Shown one piece after another: positions 56,722-64,000 of a DNA stretch of 64,000 nucleotides (position 1 is its first letter; the number at the start of each line of letters is the position of its first letter). Under the pieces are notes generated by a model. That model saw only the letters and a program-made list of their open reading frames with translations, was not told where the DNA came from and did not search any database. A program made the translations under genes and the position numbers. The stretch is taken from positions 56,728 to 120,727 of the forward strand of contig JAHQWG010000039.1 in assembly GCA_029856045.1 (NCBI GenBank), read 5' to 3'. Source of the stretch: Promethearchaeia archaeon. GTDB lineage: Archaea > Asgardarchaeota > Lokiarchaeia > Sigyniarchaeales > SOKP01.

Positions 56722-58758
56722 ATGAATCTTAAATCAAATAGTTTCCAGAAAAAGGCAGGAATATTCTATACTCCAGAGTACATTAGTGAATTCATTGTAA
56801 AAAACGCAATTTTTGAATATATATTAACATTCTTTGAAAAAAGATATCAGAATATTGATGAATTAATTTTATCAGACAATCTTGATGACTTAAAAAAATT
56901 AAATAACATTATTATACATTTGAAAATCTTAGACCCAGCATGCGGAGCTGGCATATTTTTATTAAAATCGGGACAAATATTATTTGAATTAACGAGTAAA
57001 ATTGCAAAAAGATTAAATCTTAGAGAACCGACCTCCAAGAATAAGGTTGAGATATTAGAAAATAATCTTTACGGTGTTGATATATTTGAAGAAATTGTTC
57101 AAGAATGCAAATCCCAAATGAAAAAATGGTTGATTTCAAACGATCAACTTAATTTTAATAATTATGGAAATAAAAATATAAATTTTAATATAAAGGTTGG
57201 AAATAGTTTAATTAGCAGTTTAAATGAAGAAATAAATGGGGAAGATGCATTTAGTAAAGATTTTTCAATAGATTGGAAGTTATTCCACTGGAGTAAAGAA
57301 TTTCCTGAAGTAATTAAGAGCGGAGGATTTGATATCATTTTGGAAAATCCGCCCTATATTTTTACAAGAGGAGAGAATTTTTCTCCTTTACAGAAAAAGT
57401 ACTTCAAAAATTATATTTCTAAGTTAGGGTTAATTCAATCAAAAAAAGGAAGGCAAATTCAATCCAATAAATTAAATACGTATTCTCTATTTATCTTAAG
57501 GTCTTTAGAATTATTAAAAGAGGGTGGAAAATTAGCGGCAATAATTCCAAATAATTTTTTACGCAATACTAATCTCGATATTTACAGAGATTACATACTT
57601 AGTAATTATTCAATCAATCGAATTGTTGATTTATCTAATAGTGTTTTTCGAAATGTAGTTGCATCTATTGCCTGCTTATTTATTGAAAACAAAAAGCCAG
57701 ATGAGGAATTCAAGACGCAAATTATATCAAATATTGAAAATCTTAATGAAAACATTTATACAGAAAATAAGAGAACACAATCCAGTTTTCTGAAAAATAA
57801 GAGCTATGTAATTAATATTTATCTTGATGACACAGCACATAAAATTTGTGAAGAAATTATAAATAATTCAATAAGGTTAGGAGAAATTACTGAGTATATT
57901 ATTGAAGGAATTATCTGCTCTAAAAAGAGAAATGTCTTTGAAACTCGACTGATGTCCATAGATATGCCTTTTTTAGAGGGAAAAAATATTGATCGGTATA
58001 TTACTAAATGGTCTGGAAAGTTTATTAGATATAAAAGAGAAAATTTGCATAGGGCAAGACCTAATGAAGTATTTACTAGCAATAAATTGATATTACAAAG
58101 AATTAGTGGAGGACCTAAACCATTAAAAGTGAATTATGACCCTGGGATTTTTTATACATTTTCATCGATAAATAATATAATCATTAGTGACGAATACCGA
58201 AAGAAATTTCCTTTAAAACTTGTTTTAGTAATTTTAAACTCCAATCTAATGAACTGGTATTATGCAATAAATTTCTCAAATAGGTCAGAACTTACAGTAA
58301 ATATATCAAAAACTTTTTTGGAAGAAATACCTATTGTTAGACCTAAAAATAAATCCCTTTTTGAAAATATCGCAGATTATTTGATGTTTCTATTTCAGTA
58401 TTATAATATTGAAAATGAAAATTTAATTTTCAACGATGCGATGATCCAATTTTTTTATGAATTAAGTAATGGAATAGTTTATGAACTATATATGAATGAA
58501 AAAACTCATTCAAATTTATTAATTAATTTAGAAAATAAGTTAATGCCAATAGAATTTGATGATTGGATTTATGGAAAATTTAGTAATCTCATTTTTAAAG
58601 AAGAGCTATTTCATTTTAAAAAAATTGAAAAGATTAATCTTGAAAAAATAGAGAAGGTTTATGAGATTTTAATTAAAGATAACACGATTCGGACTAATTT
58701 AACTGAAATATTTGAAAATAAGTGGATAAAGTTTATTGAGAGAGGGGTTAAAAGGTGA
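56722..58758 (+). CDS. N6-adenine DNA methyltransferase (TaqI/Eco57I-like class)
   Basis: FYTPEYISEFIVKNA; ILDPACGAGIFLLKS; IILENPPYI; GGKLAAIIPNNFLR. Confidence 0.92.
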   Translation: MNLKSNSFQKKAGIFYTPEYISEFIVKNAIFEYILTFFEKRYQNIDELILSDNLDDLKKLNNIIIHLKILDPACGAGIFLLKSGQILFELTSKIAKRLNLREPTSKNKVEILENNLYGVDIFEEIVQECKSQMKKWLISNDQLNFNNYGNKNINFNIKVGNSLISSLNEEINGEDAFSKDFSIDWKLFHWSKEFPEVIKSGGFDIILENPPYIFTRGENFSPLQKKYFKNYISKLGLIQSKKGRQIQSNKLNTYSLFILRSLELLKEGGKLAAIIPNNFLRNTNLDIYRDYILSNYSINRIVDLSNSVFRNVVASIACLFIENKKPDEEFKTQIISNIENLNENIYTENKRTQSSFLKNKSYVINIYLDDTAHKICEEIINNSIRLGEITEYIIEGIICSKKRNVFETRLMSIDMPFLEGKNIDRYITKWSGKFIRYKRENLHRARPNEVFTSNKLILQRISGGPKPLKVNYDPGIFYTFSSINNIIISDEYRKKFPLKLVLVILNSNLMNWYYAINFSNRSELTVNISKTFLEEIPIVRPKNKSLFENIADYLMFLFQYYNIENENLIFNDAMIQFFYELSNGIVYELYMNEKTHSNLLINLENKLMPIEFDDWIYGKFSNLIFKEELFHFKKIEKINLEKIEKVYEILIKDNTIRTNLTEIFENKWIKFIERGVKR

Positions 58759-59014: not shown

Positions 59015-60331
59015 TTGCGGGGAAATATCATAAAAAATTTAAACATAAATCAGAATAATCAACTGAAATATTTAATAATAAAAAACCCATTAGATTTACA
59101 AATTGAAAGAAAAGATATATTTTATCGCGAATCTTATTCCGAAATTATTGATTATATAAAATTTTTATTGAGTTCTGAGGTTGTATCATCAGAAATTAAA
59201 ATAAAGAAGATTAAAGGTTCAATTTTGATTGATGCTCCTTATGGTTCAGATATACTACGTTATATTAAATTGATTGCAAAGACATTCACTTTAAAATTTG
59301 TAAAATTAAATTTTTCCGAGATTAGAAAATCTCCTGATGATTTTATATTAAATTTTCCAAATATTTTTGATAATTTGGCTAAAAATTATAGGGATGCTAA
59401 AAAATTAGAGCAAGAACTTAAAGAAAAAGATAAAACCATTGAAAGAGCTTTAAAATTTATATTTGTTGTTGAAAATCAACAAGAATTTTTTCAGAGAAAC
59501 TATAAAGATATTCATTTTGATATATTCGAACATTTATATTATGAATTAAAAAATAAGATGGAAAATTTCAATTTTAACGAGAATGGGATTATTTTCCTAG
59601 GAATTAATCATCTGGAGAATTCTTTATGCCGAGCAAGTTTTAAATTATTTGATTTTTATTTAAAAATTCCAACTATCGCTGAAAATGAAAGAAGGATTAT
59701 CTTAGAAAAAATTAGTGAAGAGATATCTACAAATCATACTTTTGATGTGGGCAGAATTACTTCCTTAACTGATGGTTGGGAAGTAAAAGATATAAGGGAA
59801 TTGATAAGCACTGCATATTTACGGAATGTGGCAAAATTAAATGATTCTATTAATGATATTACAGAAACAATAGAAAAAATTATTGACAAAGGGGAATTTA
59901 TTCCTTCATATTTAATTTCATTAAATTCTATTCAAAATAAATTAGGGGAATTTCAAACTCCTATAAATTCCTCAATAGTTCAATCAATAAATCAAAATAA
60001 GAAATTTAAAATAGAACTTTCAAAAGTAGATCACAAAAAAATTCCAGAACTTGAATCCAAATTAAGAGCTGAAATAGAAAAGATTAAATCACAAAGAATT
60101 TCAAATTTTATGGTACAACAATTATATGAGGATGCAGCCTCAGAAAATTATACAGAGCTCTTAGTCATATTAGATAAGATGAAAAAGAAAGAACCCCTTG
60201 AAGATTACGATCGAAAATTATTAGCAGAATATTCTTTTATTTTGAATGACCCTCCAAATATCGCTTTAATACTGTTAGAAAAGGCAAAAAAAAGAATTGA
60301 TAATATTAAAAAAGCATTTAGGAAGGAATAG
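59015..60331 (+). CDS. Degenerate AAA-type ATPase-like protein (P-loop and Walker B lost)
   Basis: GSILIDAPYGSDILRYIKLIAKTFTLKFVKLN at Walker A position, GIIFLGINHL at Walker B position, ITSLTDGWEVKDIRELISTAY typical of the AAA lid; TTG start uncertain. Confidence 0.65.
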   Translation: MRGNIIKNLNINQNNQLKYLIIKNPLDLQIERKDIFYRESYSEIIDYIKFLLSSEVVSSEIKIKKIKGSILIDAPYGSDILRYIKLIAKTFTLKFVKLNFSEIRKSPDDFILNFPNIFDNLAKNYRDAKKLEQELKEKDKTIERALKFIFVVENQQEFFQRNYKDIHFDIFEHLYYELKNKMENFNFNENGIIFLGINHLENSLCRASFKLFDFYLKIPTIAENERRIILEKISEEISTNHTFDVGRITSLTDGWEVKDIRELISTAYLRNVAKLNDSINDITETIEKIIDKGEFIPSYLISLNSIQNKLGEFQTPINSSIVQSINQNKKFKIELSKVDHKKIPELESKLRAEIEKIKSQRISNFMVQQLYEDAASENYTELLVILDKMKKKEPLEDYDRKLLAEYSFILNDPPNIALILLEKAKKRIDNIKKAFRKE

Positions 60332-60364
60332 AAAATTTCGACAAAATCAAAAAAAATCAAGCCT

Positions 60365-63300
60365 ATGAAATCATCGGATAACCTAGACCAAGATGTCTAT
60401 ATTAAGGAAATCATATTAGAGAACTTTTTAGCCTTTCAGAGAGATAAAGCAGAATTTTCTAAAGGATTGGTACTGATTGTTGGTCCTAATTGGTCCGGTA
60501 AATCTACAATTTACCAAGGGATAAAGTTTGCCTTGGGTAGCAATGAACGGGATGAGAGATATTCAAAATGGTCTGATTTTATAAGATCCGGACAAAATCA
60601 TGCTCTAATCGAACTATATATTCAGACACCTGAGAATTTAATTGGAATACGAAGGACAGTTCTTAGAGGAAAAGCTCCGTTTTTTGAAATAAAGCAAAAA
60701 AATGATAAAGAATTCAAAAAAATTAATTCCCTTGAAATAAGAGATCTCGTGAAATCATTAAATTATAATCCGGATAATCAATTTTCTTTTGTCAGTCAAG
60801 GCAAAATCGATGCGTTTAAAGATATGAAACCTGAGGAATTATGTATTTTCTTAGAGGAAGGAGTGGGTTTAAAAGGATTAAGGCAGGAAATTTTAAATCA
60901 AAAAACTCAAGTAGCCAAATTACAAGAAAAATTAAAAGCATTAAAAACAGAGCAAAATAGTTGGAATTTTGAATTAAAATTATTGGAGCCTAAGTTAAAA
61001 AGATTAGAAGATAAGCGAAATTTGCTTAAAGACAGAGAAAACCTTACAGATGAGTTATTATGGGCTAATCGAGATAAAATAGAGAAAGAGATTTATATTC
61101 TCGAAGAAAATATTAAGAAAATTACTATTATAATTAATGATTTACAAAAGCAATTAGAAGATTTTATATCACAAACAAATGAAATCATTAAAAAAATTGA
61201 TAAAATTAATAAAAATTCAGAAAAACTGTCTGAGAATATTGGTAAAATAAGGGGTAGAATTTCAGAACTAGAGAAGATAATTCAACAGTGGAAGATTGAG
61301 CAACAAAAAATAAAGGTACGTTTAGAAGAATTAGAACAAAAAAAAAATAAATTAAAAAGTAAATTAAACAACAATAAAGCTAAAGGAAATAAAATCTCAG
61401 AAGAATTAAAAATCATTCGCAATAATATTAAAATACTAGATTCTGCAATCTCTGATATTTTAAAAGAACAAAATGAATTAGTAGAAAAGGTATCTATTCA
61501 CAAAGATTTTCTTGAGAAATTTAAGGGGACAAAAGGGGAATTAAGTAAAAAACAAGATGAACTTATTCAGAATACCCAAAAAATAACAGAAATTAATGAT
61601 GAAATCGATAGTATTTTCGCCGAATTAAGAGATGTGAAACATCAACTTGAGCAAAATAAATGGTTTCTTAAAGATAAGGATGAGAATTTACAAGAAAAGC
61701 TGATTAATCAACGTAATAATTTGGATAATAAAATTCATGATTTGAGAGAACAACTAAGTGAAATAAGAAAGGATCATGATAAAAAAGTTAATGCTTATAA
61801 AAGATTAAATTATTCCATTAGAGAAAAAAGATTATTCTTACCTTCAAATATCATATCTTTAAAAGAAGAAATTTATAATAGAAATCTAAACGCAAAAGGC
61901 CCAATAATTGAATTATTACAATATAATGATAAATTGGGGTTTGCAATTGAATCAGTTTTAGGAAAGAAAGTATTATTTAGTTTTATTGCAGGCGATTGGA
62001 ATACTTTTATTCTACTAAAAAAATTAAAAGATAGCCATAATGTTTATTGCAATATATATATACCAAAGGAAGTAAGTATTCGTCAATTTTCAAAATATGA
62101 AAAAATTGATGGAGTATTGGGCTATCTCGCAGAATTAATTAAAATTAAAGGCAATGATGAAGATGTAAGGAAATTAATTTTTTCTAAAGTGAAAAATTGT
62201 CTTGTAGTAGAAGATTTTACTACAGGAACACTTATGCATAAAAACTACAAATTTAGAGGTAAATGCGTTACATTAAAAGGCGAACAAATCATATCATATG
62301 ATTATGTTGTTGAAACCCCATATTTAAAGAAATTAGAAGGATTATTAAGTCCAACTAAACAAATGGATCAATTGTATCTATTAGAAATGGAAATAAGTAA
62401 ATCGAATGATGAAAGAAAGGATTTAGAATCCTTAAAAACTAAAATAGATCAAAAATATCGAGAAATTTCTAAGAAAATTGATGCCTTACCTACTCTTGAA
62501 TTATTATTTCGGCAAGAACAAAAACTTTTAAGCAAAAAAGATAATCTCCTTGAAATAAGAAAAAAAATGAACGAATTGAATGATAATATTGAAATACAAA
62601 TCGATAATTTGTTAAAAGAAGTAGAAATTTTAAAGAGAGAACAAAAACCAGAGTTTTTTGAATGGCAGAAGCGTTTAGAAAAGATTCCAGAAGAATTTGA
62701 TTTAAAAAACAGTGAAAAGAAGCATTGGTCAGAAATTAATGATGAAAAACAGAAATCATTATCTGAAATTCAAGAAATTATAAATAAAGAAACCGCTGAA
62801 TTTACAAAAATAAACGTTAATTATAAAACAACTAAAAAAGAGTTTCAAGGTAGAGATCAGAAGGCATTTGAAGTATTTCAAGAACTAACTGGACTTGAAA
62901 ATCAAATTAAGGATTTAAAAATTCAGAAAGAAAAATATGAGTTAGATAAAAAGACTCTAAAGGAAGAAGAAAATAAAATTAGACAAGAAAATCTTGAATT
63001 TAATTTAAATTATGAAAGAAAACAAGACCAATTGAGTTCACTACAAAATGATCTCCAATCTAAAATCTTAGATCTAGAAAAAGTTAATAAAGAGATTGGT
63101 CCAAAAATATTGAGTAAAGAAATAGAAATACGTCCAATTGAAGAAATTGAAAATGATCTTCTCGAATTGAATAAAAGATTAATGAAATACGCAGATATTG
63201 ACGATACTCTAGATTTAGAAAAAGAGAGAATTATTCAAACACTCAAAAAAATTGCTCAAAATCAAGCACAAATTCAGAGAGACCTTATTGAAGCAGAAGA

Positions 63301-63796
63301 AACCGAAAAAAATTTAGAAAATACATATTATAAAAAGTTTAATAAAATTATCAAAAAACTAGAAGATTTAATTAATAAAAAATTTGAAATCTCTGAAATT
63401 AAAGCTCAGTGTTCGATAGATTTATCGGGAAAATTTGAAAATTTAGGTATTAAAATTAAAGCAGCTTTATTAAAAGAACAGCTACGAGATATAACCGCAT
63501 TAAGTGGAGGGCAACGCTCTATTATTGCAATTTGTTTAATACTATCTTTACAAGAATTTAAATCAAGTAGGATAATTGTATTAGACGAAGCAGAATTATA
63601 CTTGGATGAAAATAACGCTGAAATCGCTTATAAATTAATAAAGAGCGCAATTCAGATGAATAAAATACAAATAATAATATTTGTGCCAAAAGCATCTAAA
63701 TATATTTTTTCAATGGCAGACAAACTTATTGGAGTTGCACGAAATGGAGCAATAGGTCCATCAACGATACTCCAACCTAAGATAAAAAGAACTTAA
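60365..63796 (+). CDS. SMC-family ATPase (SMC5/6-like features)
   Basis: Walker A VGPNWSGKST; QFSFVSQGKIDAF; long coiled coils; hinge-like centre KGPIIELLQYNDKLGFAIESVLG; C-terminal LSGGQRSIIAICLILSLQ and IIVLDEAELYLDENN. Confidence 0.9.
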   Translation: MKSSDNLDQDVYIKEIILENFLAFQRDKAEFSKGLVLIVGPNWSGKSTIYQGIKFALGSNERDERYSKWSDFIRSGQNHALIELYIQTPENLIGIRRTVLRGKAPFFEIKQKNDKEFKKINSLEIRDLVKSLNYNPDNQFSFVSQGKIDAFKDMKPEELCIFLEEGVGLKGLRQEILNQKTQVAKLQEKLKALKTEQNSWNFELKLLEPKLKRLEDKRNLLKDRENLTDELLWANRDKIEKEIYILEENIKKITIIINDLQKQLEDFISQTNEIIKKIDKINKNSEKLSENIGKIRGRISELEKIIQQWKIEQQKIKVRLEELEQKKNKLKSKLNNNKAKGNKISEELKIIRNNIKILDSAISDILKEQNELVEKVSIHKDFLEKFKGTKGELSKKQDELIQNTQKITEINDEIDSIFAELRDVKHQLEQNKWFLKDKDENLQEKLINQRNNLDNKIHDLREQLSEIRKDHDKKVNAYKRLNYSIREKRLFLPSNIISLKEEIYNRNLNAKGPIIELLQYNDKLGFAIESVLGKKVLFSFIAGDWNTFILLKKLKDSHNVYCNIYIPKEVSIRQFSKYEKIDGVLGYLAELIKIKGNDEDVRKLIFSKVKNCLVVEDFTTGTLMHKNYKFRGKCVTLKGEQIISYDYVVETPYLKKLEGLLSPTKQMDQLYLLEMEISKSNDERKDLESLKTKIDQKYREISKKIDALPTLELLFRQEQKLLSKKDNLLEIRKKMNELNDNIEIQIDNLLKEVEILKREQKPEFFEWQKRLEKIPEEFDLKNSEKKHWSEINDEKQKSLSEIQEIINKETAEFTKINVNYKTTKKEFQGRDQKAFEVFQELTGLENQIKDLKIQKEKYELDKKTLKEEENKIRQENLEFNLNYERKQDQLSSLQNDLQSKILDLEKVNKEIGPKILSKEIEIRPIEEIENDLLELNKRLMKYADIDDTLDLEKERIIQTLKKIAQNQAQIQRDLIEAEETEKNLENTYYKKFNKIIKKLEDLINKKFEISEIKAQCSIDLSGKFENLGIKIKAALLKEQLRDITALSGGQRSIIAICLILSLQEFKSSRIIVLDEAELYLDENNAEIAYKLIKSAIQMNKIQIIIFVPKASKYIFSMADKLIGVARNGAIGPSTILQPKIKRT

Positions 63797-63813
63797 AAAA
63801 AATAGGGATAATT

Positions 63814-64000
63814 ATGGAAAAAAATAACTCCTCTACCCCGTCTATTATTGAAGAAATTCAAGAAATTTTTGAGATAATTCATAGAGGATCCAAACATGCT
63901 CTAAGTGTAGATTTAAATCCAATTTTTCAAAAATTTAAGCGATCCATAAATACACAAAATCTGAACGAATCTTCCTCTGCATTTAGTAAGTTATGTAATA
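63814..64000 (+). CDS. Hypothetical protein, 3' truncated by window edge
   Basis: ATG 18 nt after the SMC stop; MEKNNSSTPSIIEEIQEIFEIIHRGSKHALSVDLNPIFQKFKRSINTQNLNESSSAFSKLCN... Confidence 0.6.
   Translation, partial: MEKNNSSTPSIIEEIQEIFEIIHRGSKHALSVDLNPIFQKFKRSINTQNLNESSSAFSKLCN

Follow-up and report, generated by a model that had tools for sequence, protein, structure and literature searches.

Does the end of a 64,000-nucleotide stretch from a Promethearchaeia archaeon (assembly GCA_029856045.1, contig JAHQWG010000039.1, positions 56,728 to 120,727; G000:C41:56728-120727 in our numbering, and referred to as the window) encode an SMC complex that includes an AAA protein without catalytic residues? 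The question arises from three same-strand open reading frames (ORFs), namely ORF1, an SMC gene and ORF3. The stretch comes from the Asgard archaea, the nearest kin of eukaryotes; SMC proteins organise DNA, and kleisin and KITE are the two partners that an SMC ring requires. A sequence-only reading of the window had proposed that a pseudo-AAA protein and the third ORF act as non-canonical partners of an SMC-family ATPase. The overall best explanation of the locus, and in our estimate a likely one, is a pseudoAAA-SMC-kleisin-KITE operon that would encode an SMC complex with an AAA-derived subunit or regulator. Synteny and the conserved loss of the ATP site strongly support a conserved partnership of the dead AAA with an Asgard SMC, so this half of the proposal stands; the other half does not, as the third ORF is a predicted kleisin.

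The three ORFs all lie on the + strand and are spaced by 33 nt (ORF1-SMC) and 17 nt (SMC-ORF3), in agreement with the packing described in the sequence-only reading. A scan of the + strand for consensus terminators between ORF1, SMC and ORF3 returned none, although such scans carry little weight in archaea. ORF3 does leave the window, as had been noted, because the contig itself stops at the window end; its truncation is due to an assembly break and not to a gene end. Contig C41 overlaps another contig of this genome, C6, exactly over 127 bp (window 63874-64000 = G000:C6:1-127), and the two could be joined there. Across this join the full ORF3 has 223 amino acids (aa), and ORF4, the KITE gene, comes next on C6. 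The AAA-SMC-ORF3 trio is therefore real and conserved, but it is part of a quartet with its fourth gene beyond the window. Judged from gene content and order, the unit is very probably a four-gene operon with the architecture pseudoAAA-SMC-kleisin-KITE.

To place this arrangement in a wider context, ORF1 and the SMC were searched for in 147 related genomes, which were grouped in families (f1 is the window's own family, f1-f4 belong to the window's order, and f8, f10 and f12 to the same phylum). ORF1 is directly upstream of the SMC gene on the same strand in 80 of the 80 Asgard genomes where both were located, with 58 of these pairs coming from f1 and a median gap of 72 nt between the matched ends. 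The pairing is thus not due to chance. An SMC match is present in 64 of 65 f1 genomes, and the order of SMC, then ORF3, then ORF4 is kept in f1-f4, f8, f10 and f12, with the coding regions of ORF3 and ORF4 overlapping or almost touching. Genes flanking the operon vary from family to family. Comparable AAA-SMC-kleisin-KITE quartets are found in f17, a deeper family, and in f5/f7, and at least one further operon holder, Lokiarchaeota archaeon CR_4 (L197), is among the matches listed for a scan of the genome collection with a narrower SMC profile. Taken together, the SMC5/6-like SMCs share no stretch of sufficient conservation for such a scan. The earlier proposal had made its case depend on conservation of the set across Asgard genomes, and the set is conserved.

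It is noted that L195 (G075:C173), filed in f4, bears an f17-type operon (SMC 68% identical), which points to a misbinned contig or a transfer. In f5/f7 a ubiquitin/UFM1-like system is found beside the SMC operon (L172:353-3763, L173:2944-4027): the operon adjoins UFC1-like (UFM1 E2-like) proteins, and in f5 they are joined by a ThiF/E1-like protein and by one resembling a JAB/MPN peptidase by eye.

The adjacency bears directly on the possibility that SMC-kleisin-KITE is complete alone and that the AAA-like protein is merely co-transcribed and serves some other function, such as that of a remnant or partner of a different, MoxR-like AAA. SMC operons of f20/f22 are compatible with this view, as they have no AAA gene upstream and, where the downstream region is seen, contain one or two small genes, one of them kleisin-like. 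So is a MoxR-like AAA_5 and VWA-like pair that adjoins the AAA-SMC operon in f8 (L101, L102, L104, L106-L109; mostly divergent) and lies just upstream in the same orientation in f10 (L103) and f12 (L105). However, the ORF1-SMC adjacency holds over many families while the flanking genes change, and in f1 the pair is elsewhere: in the window genome (L175:286-3786) and in G004 it is beside a second SMC (with ScpB). Mere co-transcription is considered improbable.

Pfam found no AAA profile match on the window ORF1, and the single ORF1, ORF3 and ORF4 proteins of the window genus gave chance-level matches only, so that relatives and profiles were needed. The AlphaFold model of ORF1 (mean predicted local distance difference test score, pLDDT, 79) has an AAA fold, with Foldseek matches to Vps4, Msp1, FtsH, p97 and PAN at E ~2e-7 (best 1.7e-7) and probability 1.00. 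NCBIfam matched the lid region of CdvC/Vps4 at 2e-4. The Walker A stretch of the window protein reads DAPYGSDI, with no lysine, and the Walker B stretch reads FIFVVENQ, so the combination of a Walker A lysine and a Walker B Asp-Glu pair is absent. The description of ORF1 as an AAA-lid protein that has lost its nucleotide motifs is borne out.

The loss is not a peculiarity of the window genome. None of 52 ORF1 sequences from f1-f4, f8, f10 and f12 has the Walker A lysine, and Ile, Leu, Val, Phe or Ala stands in its place; most of them retain the Walker A loop in the form PGTD, GSD or GPPGTDF, and the Walker B glutamate is gone in all but isolated cases. The AAA profile itself becomes significant for f8 homologues (5.8e-10) and is clear for those of f17 (4.1e-25), in which Walker A is intact (GRPGTGKT) and Walker B reads LFIDNFD, with Asn in place of Glu. 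The same replacement is found in f5 and f7, whose homologues retain the Walker A GKT. AAA proteins with a Glu-to-Asn change in Walker B usually bind ATP with hydrolysis blocked. One could still suppose that the AAA-like protein binds or hydrolyses nucleotide through non-standard residues, as an active loader or unfoldase, given the GKT of the f17, f5 and f7 homologues and the retention of the PGTD/GSD loop and the fold in ORF1. Replacement of the lysine throughout seven families and loss of the glutamate in nearly all ORF1 sequences, f17 included, make this quite unlikely. By its motifs, ORF1 is a pseudo-ATPase and not an active AAA ATPase.

Conservation within ORF1 is concentrated elsewhere. 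Compared with the other f1 members, the window protein has a mean identity of 58% in the C-terminal domain (346-435) and of 29% in the AAA core, and the C-terminal domain, which has no Pfam match, is the part of ORF1 still recognisable between families. Since the best-conserved part is the C-terminal domain, a non-enzymatic role is suggested; the pattern would fit retention for binding rather than for catalysis.

The identity of ORF3 rests on the agreement of several moderate profile and fold lines. A 33-sequence ORF3 profile compared with the PDB matched the ScpA C-terminal domains 4i99_C (0.0048) and 5xns_C (0.028) at the C-terminus of ORF3, and the single ORF3 of G004 matched the NCBIfam ScpA model at the same place (0.0043). 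PF02616 (ScpA) gave no direct match to ORF3 in the genome scans. The comparison with kleisins that the sequence-only reading had suggested was informative: hhalign aligned ORF3 to archaeal ScpA with a probability of 93 (E 2.5e-7, 178 columns), and to ScpB, as a negative control, with a probability of 0.2. The AlphaFold model of ORF3 (mean pLDDT 80) consists of N-terminal helices, one of them 43 residues long, followed by a linker and by a winged helix at the C-terminus. In Foldseek, ranks 2 and 3 are Nse4 of Smc5/6 (7qcd_F and 7tve_G, identity checked), and rank 21 is 5h66_C, the C-terminal domain of B. subtilis ScpA. On these profile and model comparisons ORF3 is a ScpA/Nse4-like kleisin, and not the unrelated housekeeping gene that had been raised as a possible objection.

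For ORF4, the Pfam profile SMC_ScpB (PF04079) is over its cut-off in G070 (28.4 bits versus 27.4). The hhalign probability of ORF4 against ScpB is 81 (E 1.3e-5), compared to 0.5 for the ScpA control, and it reaches about 98.7 against ORF4 of f17 and f5/f7. Judged from these matches, ORF4 is a homologue of ScpB and a ScpB-like KITE subunit.

The SMC protein itself was expected to be full-length with a hinge, and this expectation is confirmed. It carries Walker A (GPNWSGKST), LSGGQ and VLDEA motifs split between both ends, and matches SMC_N at 3.9e-13. The hinge profile PF06470 stays below its threshold in the window protein (0.0023) and is clear in its f17 relative (2.8e-13); together with the end-to-end alignment of the operon SMC family profile with Smc2/3/4, this indicates a hinge between long coiled coils. 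Two more SMC operons are present in this genome, one with a 1476-aa SMC and ScpA- and ScpB-like genes (C27) and one with a 1195-aa SMC and a ScpB-like gene (C25). The best explanation of the window locus, from gene content, is that it forms the start of a four-gene operon for a third SMC complex besides the canonical SMC-ScpA-ScpB and the SMC-ScpB loci.

The canonical SMC of the window genome (L174:5924-10354, contig C27) is unusually long. The f17 quartet (L181-L183, L195) has SMCs that are unusually short (about 832 aa) and whose C-head is SMC5-like (HSGGEKNVTTMAFLLALQ...DEFGIHTD). The assignment of these 832-aa proteins to Rad50 was considered and rejected; they belong to another AAA-SMC-kleisin-KITE operon. 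The f20/f22 SMCs (L184, L185, L193, L194) have 1056-1080 aa and an SMC6-like Walker B (DEFDVFLD/DEFDVYLD).

To place the operon SMC, a Rad50-rooted tree was built from the ATPase heads (349 columns, LG+F+R4; eukaryotic SMC2-4 by the N-head only), and alternative placements were compared by the approximately unbiased (AU) test under LG+F+G4. Reference sequences of human SMC5/SMC6 and yeast Nse4 were taken from PDB entries. The operon SMCs form a single clade (99.8/100). The SMCs of f17 and f20/f22 group with eukaryotic SMC5/6 (97.6/100), and the wider set of operon SMCs, f17, f20/f22 and eukaryotic SMC5/6 is supported at 88.4/97; canonical and bacterial SMC with SMC2-4 make a separate group (83.5/97). 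SMCs of the f5/f7 quartets group with canonical SMC with weak support, and orthology of the whole f5/f7 set is not claimed.

These results have to be weighed against the view that the SMC diverged as a paralogue of canonical SMC and has no particular tie to Smc5/6, the quartet then being a variant of archaeal condensin. The AU test, with p 0.15-0.25 for the alternative placements, rejects neither one that joins the operon SMCs to canonical SMC (p 0.25) nor one that makes them an outside group (p 0.19), the operon SMC profile scores best on Smc2-4, partly through the coiled coil, and the grouping of the f5/f7 SMCs points the same way. The support of the Rad50-rooted tree for operon SMCs with SMC5/6, the Nse4 hits of the kleisin model and the SMC5-like head motif of the f17 SMC argue otherwise, so that we hold the condensin variant to be the less likely of the two. 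The operon SMC is probably related to eukaryotic Smc5/6, as far as the head sequences tell, and is better described as working like Smc5/6 than as being Smc5/6. The latter is not claimed, because Smc5/6 has two different SMC subunits per complex and the operon has one SMC gene.

A role in defence was also considered, with a Wadjet- or Lamassu-like system in which an SMC-type sensor acts with its partners and with the upstream methylase. The PADLOC models mad3, LmuB and JetC match the window SMC (best 5e-17), and the gene upstream of the operon is a methylase of restriction-modification type. However, the PADLOC matches reflect generic similarity among SMC-type ATPases and recur in f8 and f17 relatives, ORF1, ORF3 and ORF4 match no PADLOC defence family, JetA/B/D or LmuA/C partners included, and no nuclease or JetD-like gene was seen. 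The operon is near-universal in f1 and not patchy, and in most relatives the methylase does not adjoin it. The defence reading, very improbable on this evidence, was rejected on the generic nature of the SMC matches and the absence of PADLOC matches for the three other products. The methylase, an Eco57I/TaqI-type (type IIG-like) adenine methylase at window 56722-58758, is directly upstream of the operon here; it is also present in the close relative G004 (L091) and does not adjoin the operon in more distant relatives.

SMC-kleisin-KITE complexes, such as bacterial Smc-ScpAB and eukaryotic Smc5/6, consist of a kleisin-closed SMC dimer (a homodimer in the bacterial form) with a KITE dimer, and their SMC ATPase entraps or extrudes DNA. 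From the gene identities, order, conservation, motif losses and folds, we infer the following assembly and role of the AAA-like protein. The SMC would form a homodimer through its hinge, and the kleisin would link both ATPase heads by contacting one neck through its N-terminal helices and the opposite head through its C-terminal winged helix, while its middle part would carry a KITE dimer. ATP hydrolysis at the SMC heads would power DNA entrapment or loop extrusion. ORF1 is best read as a structural or regulatory subunit, given its obligate linkage, its lost catalysis and its conserved C-terminal domain, and we consider it likely that the AAA-like protein is part or regulator of the complex. 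It would be a dedicated non-catalytic component, its degenerate AAA body serving as a scaffold. The C-terminal domain may dock on the SMC-kleisin-KITE core and control loading or head engagement, a detail to which we give somewhat less than even chances. Such a role would be analogous, not homologous, to that of Nse5/6 on Smc5/6; Nse5/6 inhibits the Smc5/6 ATPase (PMC8327961). As the f17 AAA has the ATP-binding lysine and Asn for the Walker B glutamate, the ancestral AAA may have acted as a clamp that bound ATP and did not hydrolyse it, with nucleotide dependence lost later.

Several points count against this picture. Operon partners may be co-regulated without binding each other. The Foldseek E-values of ORF3 (0.075, 0.08) are not significant alone. 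Six archaeal ScpA/ScpB pairs failed to bind (Jeon et al. 2020, PMC7055376), so gene adjacency alone is no proof of a ternary complex.

Features of the operon within the window
Feature	Position	Strand	Basis
ORF1 pseudo-AAA, 438 aa, TTG start	59015..60331	+	AAA fold by AlphaFold/Foldseek; catalytic residues gone; adjoins SMC in 80/80 genomes
ORF1 degenerate Walker A stretch DAPYGSDI, residues 73-80, Lys to Ile	59231..59254	+	Lys absent in 52/52
ORF1 C-terminal domain, residues 346-435, highest conservation	60050..60319	+	Identity 58% vs 29% in core; matched across families
SMC protein, 1143 aa, full-length with predicted coiled coils and hinge	60365..63796	+	Motifs, profile matches, tree
SMC Walker A GPNWSGKST, residues 40-48	60482..60508	+	Motif
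SMC hinge region, residues 511-621	61895..62227	+	PF06470, 0.0023 in window protein; 2.8e-13 in f17 relative
SMC ABC signature LSGGQ, residues 1046-1050	63500..63514	+	Motif
SMC Walker B acidic pair D1074, E1075 of VLDEA	63584..63589	+	Motif
ORF3 predicted kleisin, first 62 of 223 aa; rest on C6, followed by ORF4 (KITE, outside window)	63814..64000	+	127-bp overlap, profiles, fold

We have compared the operon with known systems. Eukaryotic Smc5/6 (Smc5-Smc6-Nse4-Nse1-Nse3, with Nse5/6) shares with it the core of SMC, kleisin and KITE, an SMC that groups with the operon SMC in the Rad50-rooted tree (97% ultrafast bootstrap, UFBoot), a kleisin that the ORF3 model resembles, and an extra non-SMC component as candidate regulator. 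In contrast to Smc5/6, the operon has one SMC gene and one KITE gene instead of two of each, no Nse2 SUMO ligase or RING domain, and an extra protein that is AAA-derived, unlike Nse5/6. With bacterial and archaeal Smc-ScpA-ScpB it has in common the order SMC-kleisin-KITE and the profile-level kinship of ORF3 and ORF4 to ScpA and ScpB. It differs in its separate SMC clade, its highly divergent ScpA and ScpB relatives and its AAA-derived first gene, and a canonical set is present in the same genome (C27). The window SMC probably belongs to the same class as the SMC5/6-related archaeal SMC of Yoshinaga and Inagaki (in PMC9389158), with which it is compared by description only; the portion of that description consulted has no kleisin, KITE or AAA partners, unlike the operon.

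ASRP (coalescin, Sph) also has SMC-type heads in archaea, and ASRP-like loci have kleisin- and KITE-like neighbours as well. The window SMC is not an ASRP: it scores 73.2 bits against the NF045487 cut-off of 300, and it has a hinge region and 1143 aa. Unlike at the operon, no AAA gene is found beside ASRP-like loci. In these loci (L199, L202, L204, L209, L214, L219 and L243, from Bathyarchaeota, Thermofilales, Methanodesulfokora, a Hodarchaeaceae metagenome-assembled genome and others) short ASRP-like genes (555-681 aa) are followed by a kleisin-like gene (profile probability 85 to ScpA) and a KITE-like gene. Vps4/CdvC, PAN, Msp1 and FtsH share the AAA fold and lid with ORF1, which departs from such classical AAA ATPases in its lost catalytic residues, its conserved C-terminal domain and its being encoded with an SMC.

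No description of the operon was found in a search of open-access papers for Asgard SMC-kleisin or AAA-SMC partners; most subscription papers lay outside the search, so its novelty is provisional. With that proviso, the pseudo-AAA as an SMC partner is a surprising and apparently undescribed element. Jeon et al. (2020, PMC7055376) made the case that a KITE is missing from most SMC complexes of archaea. Smc5/6 is the one eukaryotic SMC complex that keeps KITEs, and whether it forms a separate branch was left undecided by Wells et al. (2017, PMC5228436). We propose, tentatively and as a minority possibility, an Asgard Smc5/6-type complex with an integral pseudo-AAA that lost first the Walker B glutamate (to Asn) and later Walker A, eukaryotic Smc5/6 having descended from such a complex. 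An operon that is found across the Asgard phylum and combines an SMC5/6-like SMC with a kleisin and a KITE would be a concrete candidate for the pre-eukaryotic form. If true, SMC regulation by a dead AAA partner would be of a new kind, and the lineages, in which the ATP site has been lost to different degrees, would provide a natural series for learning what that site did.

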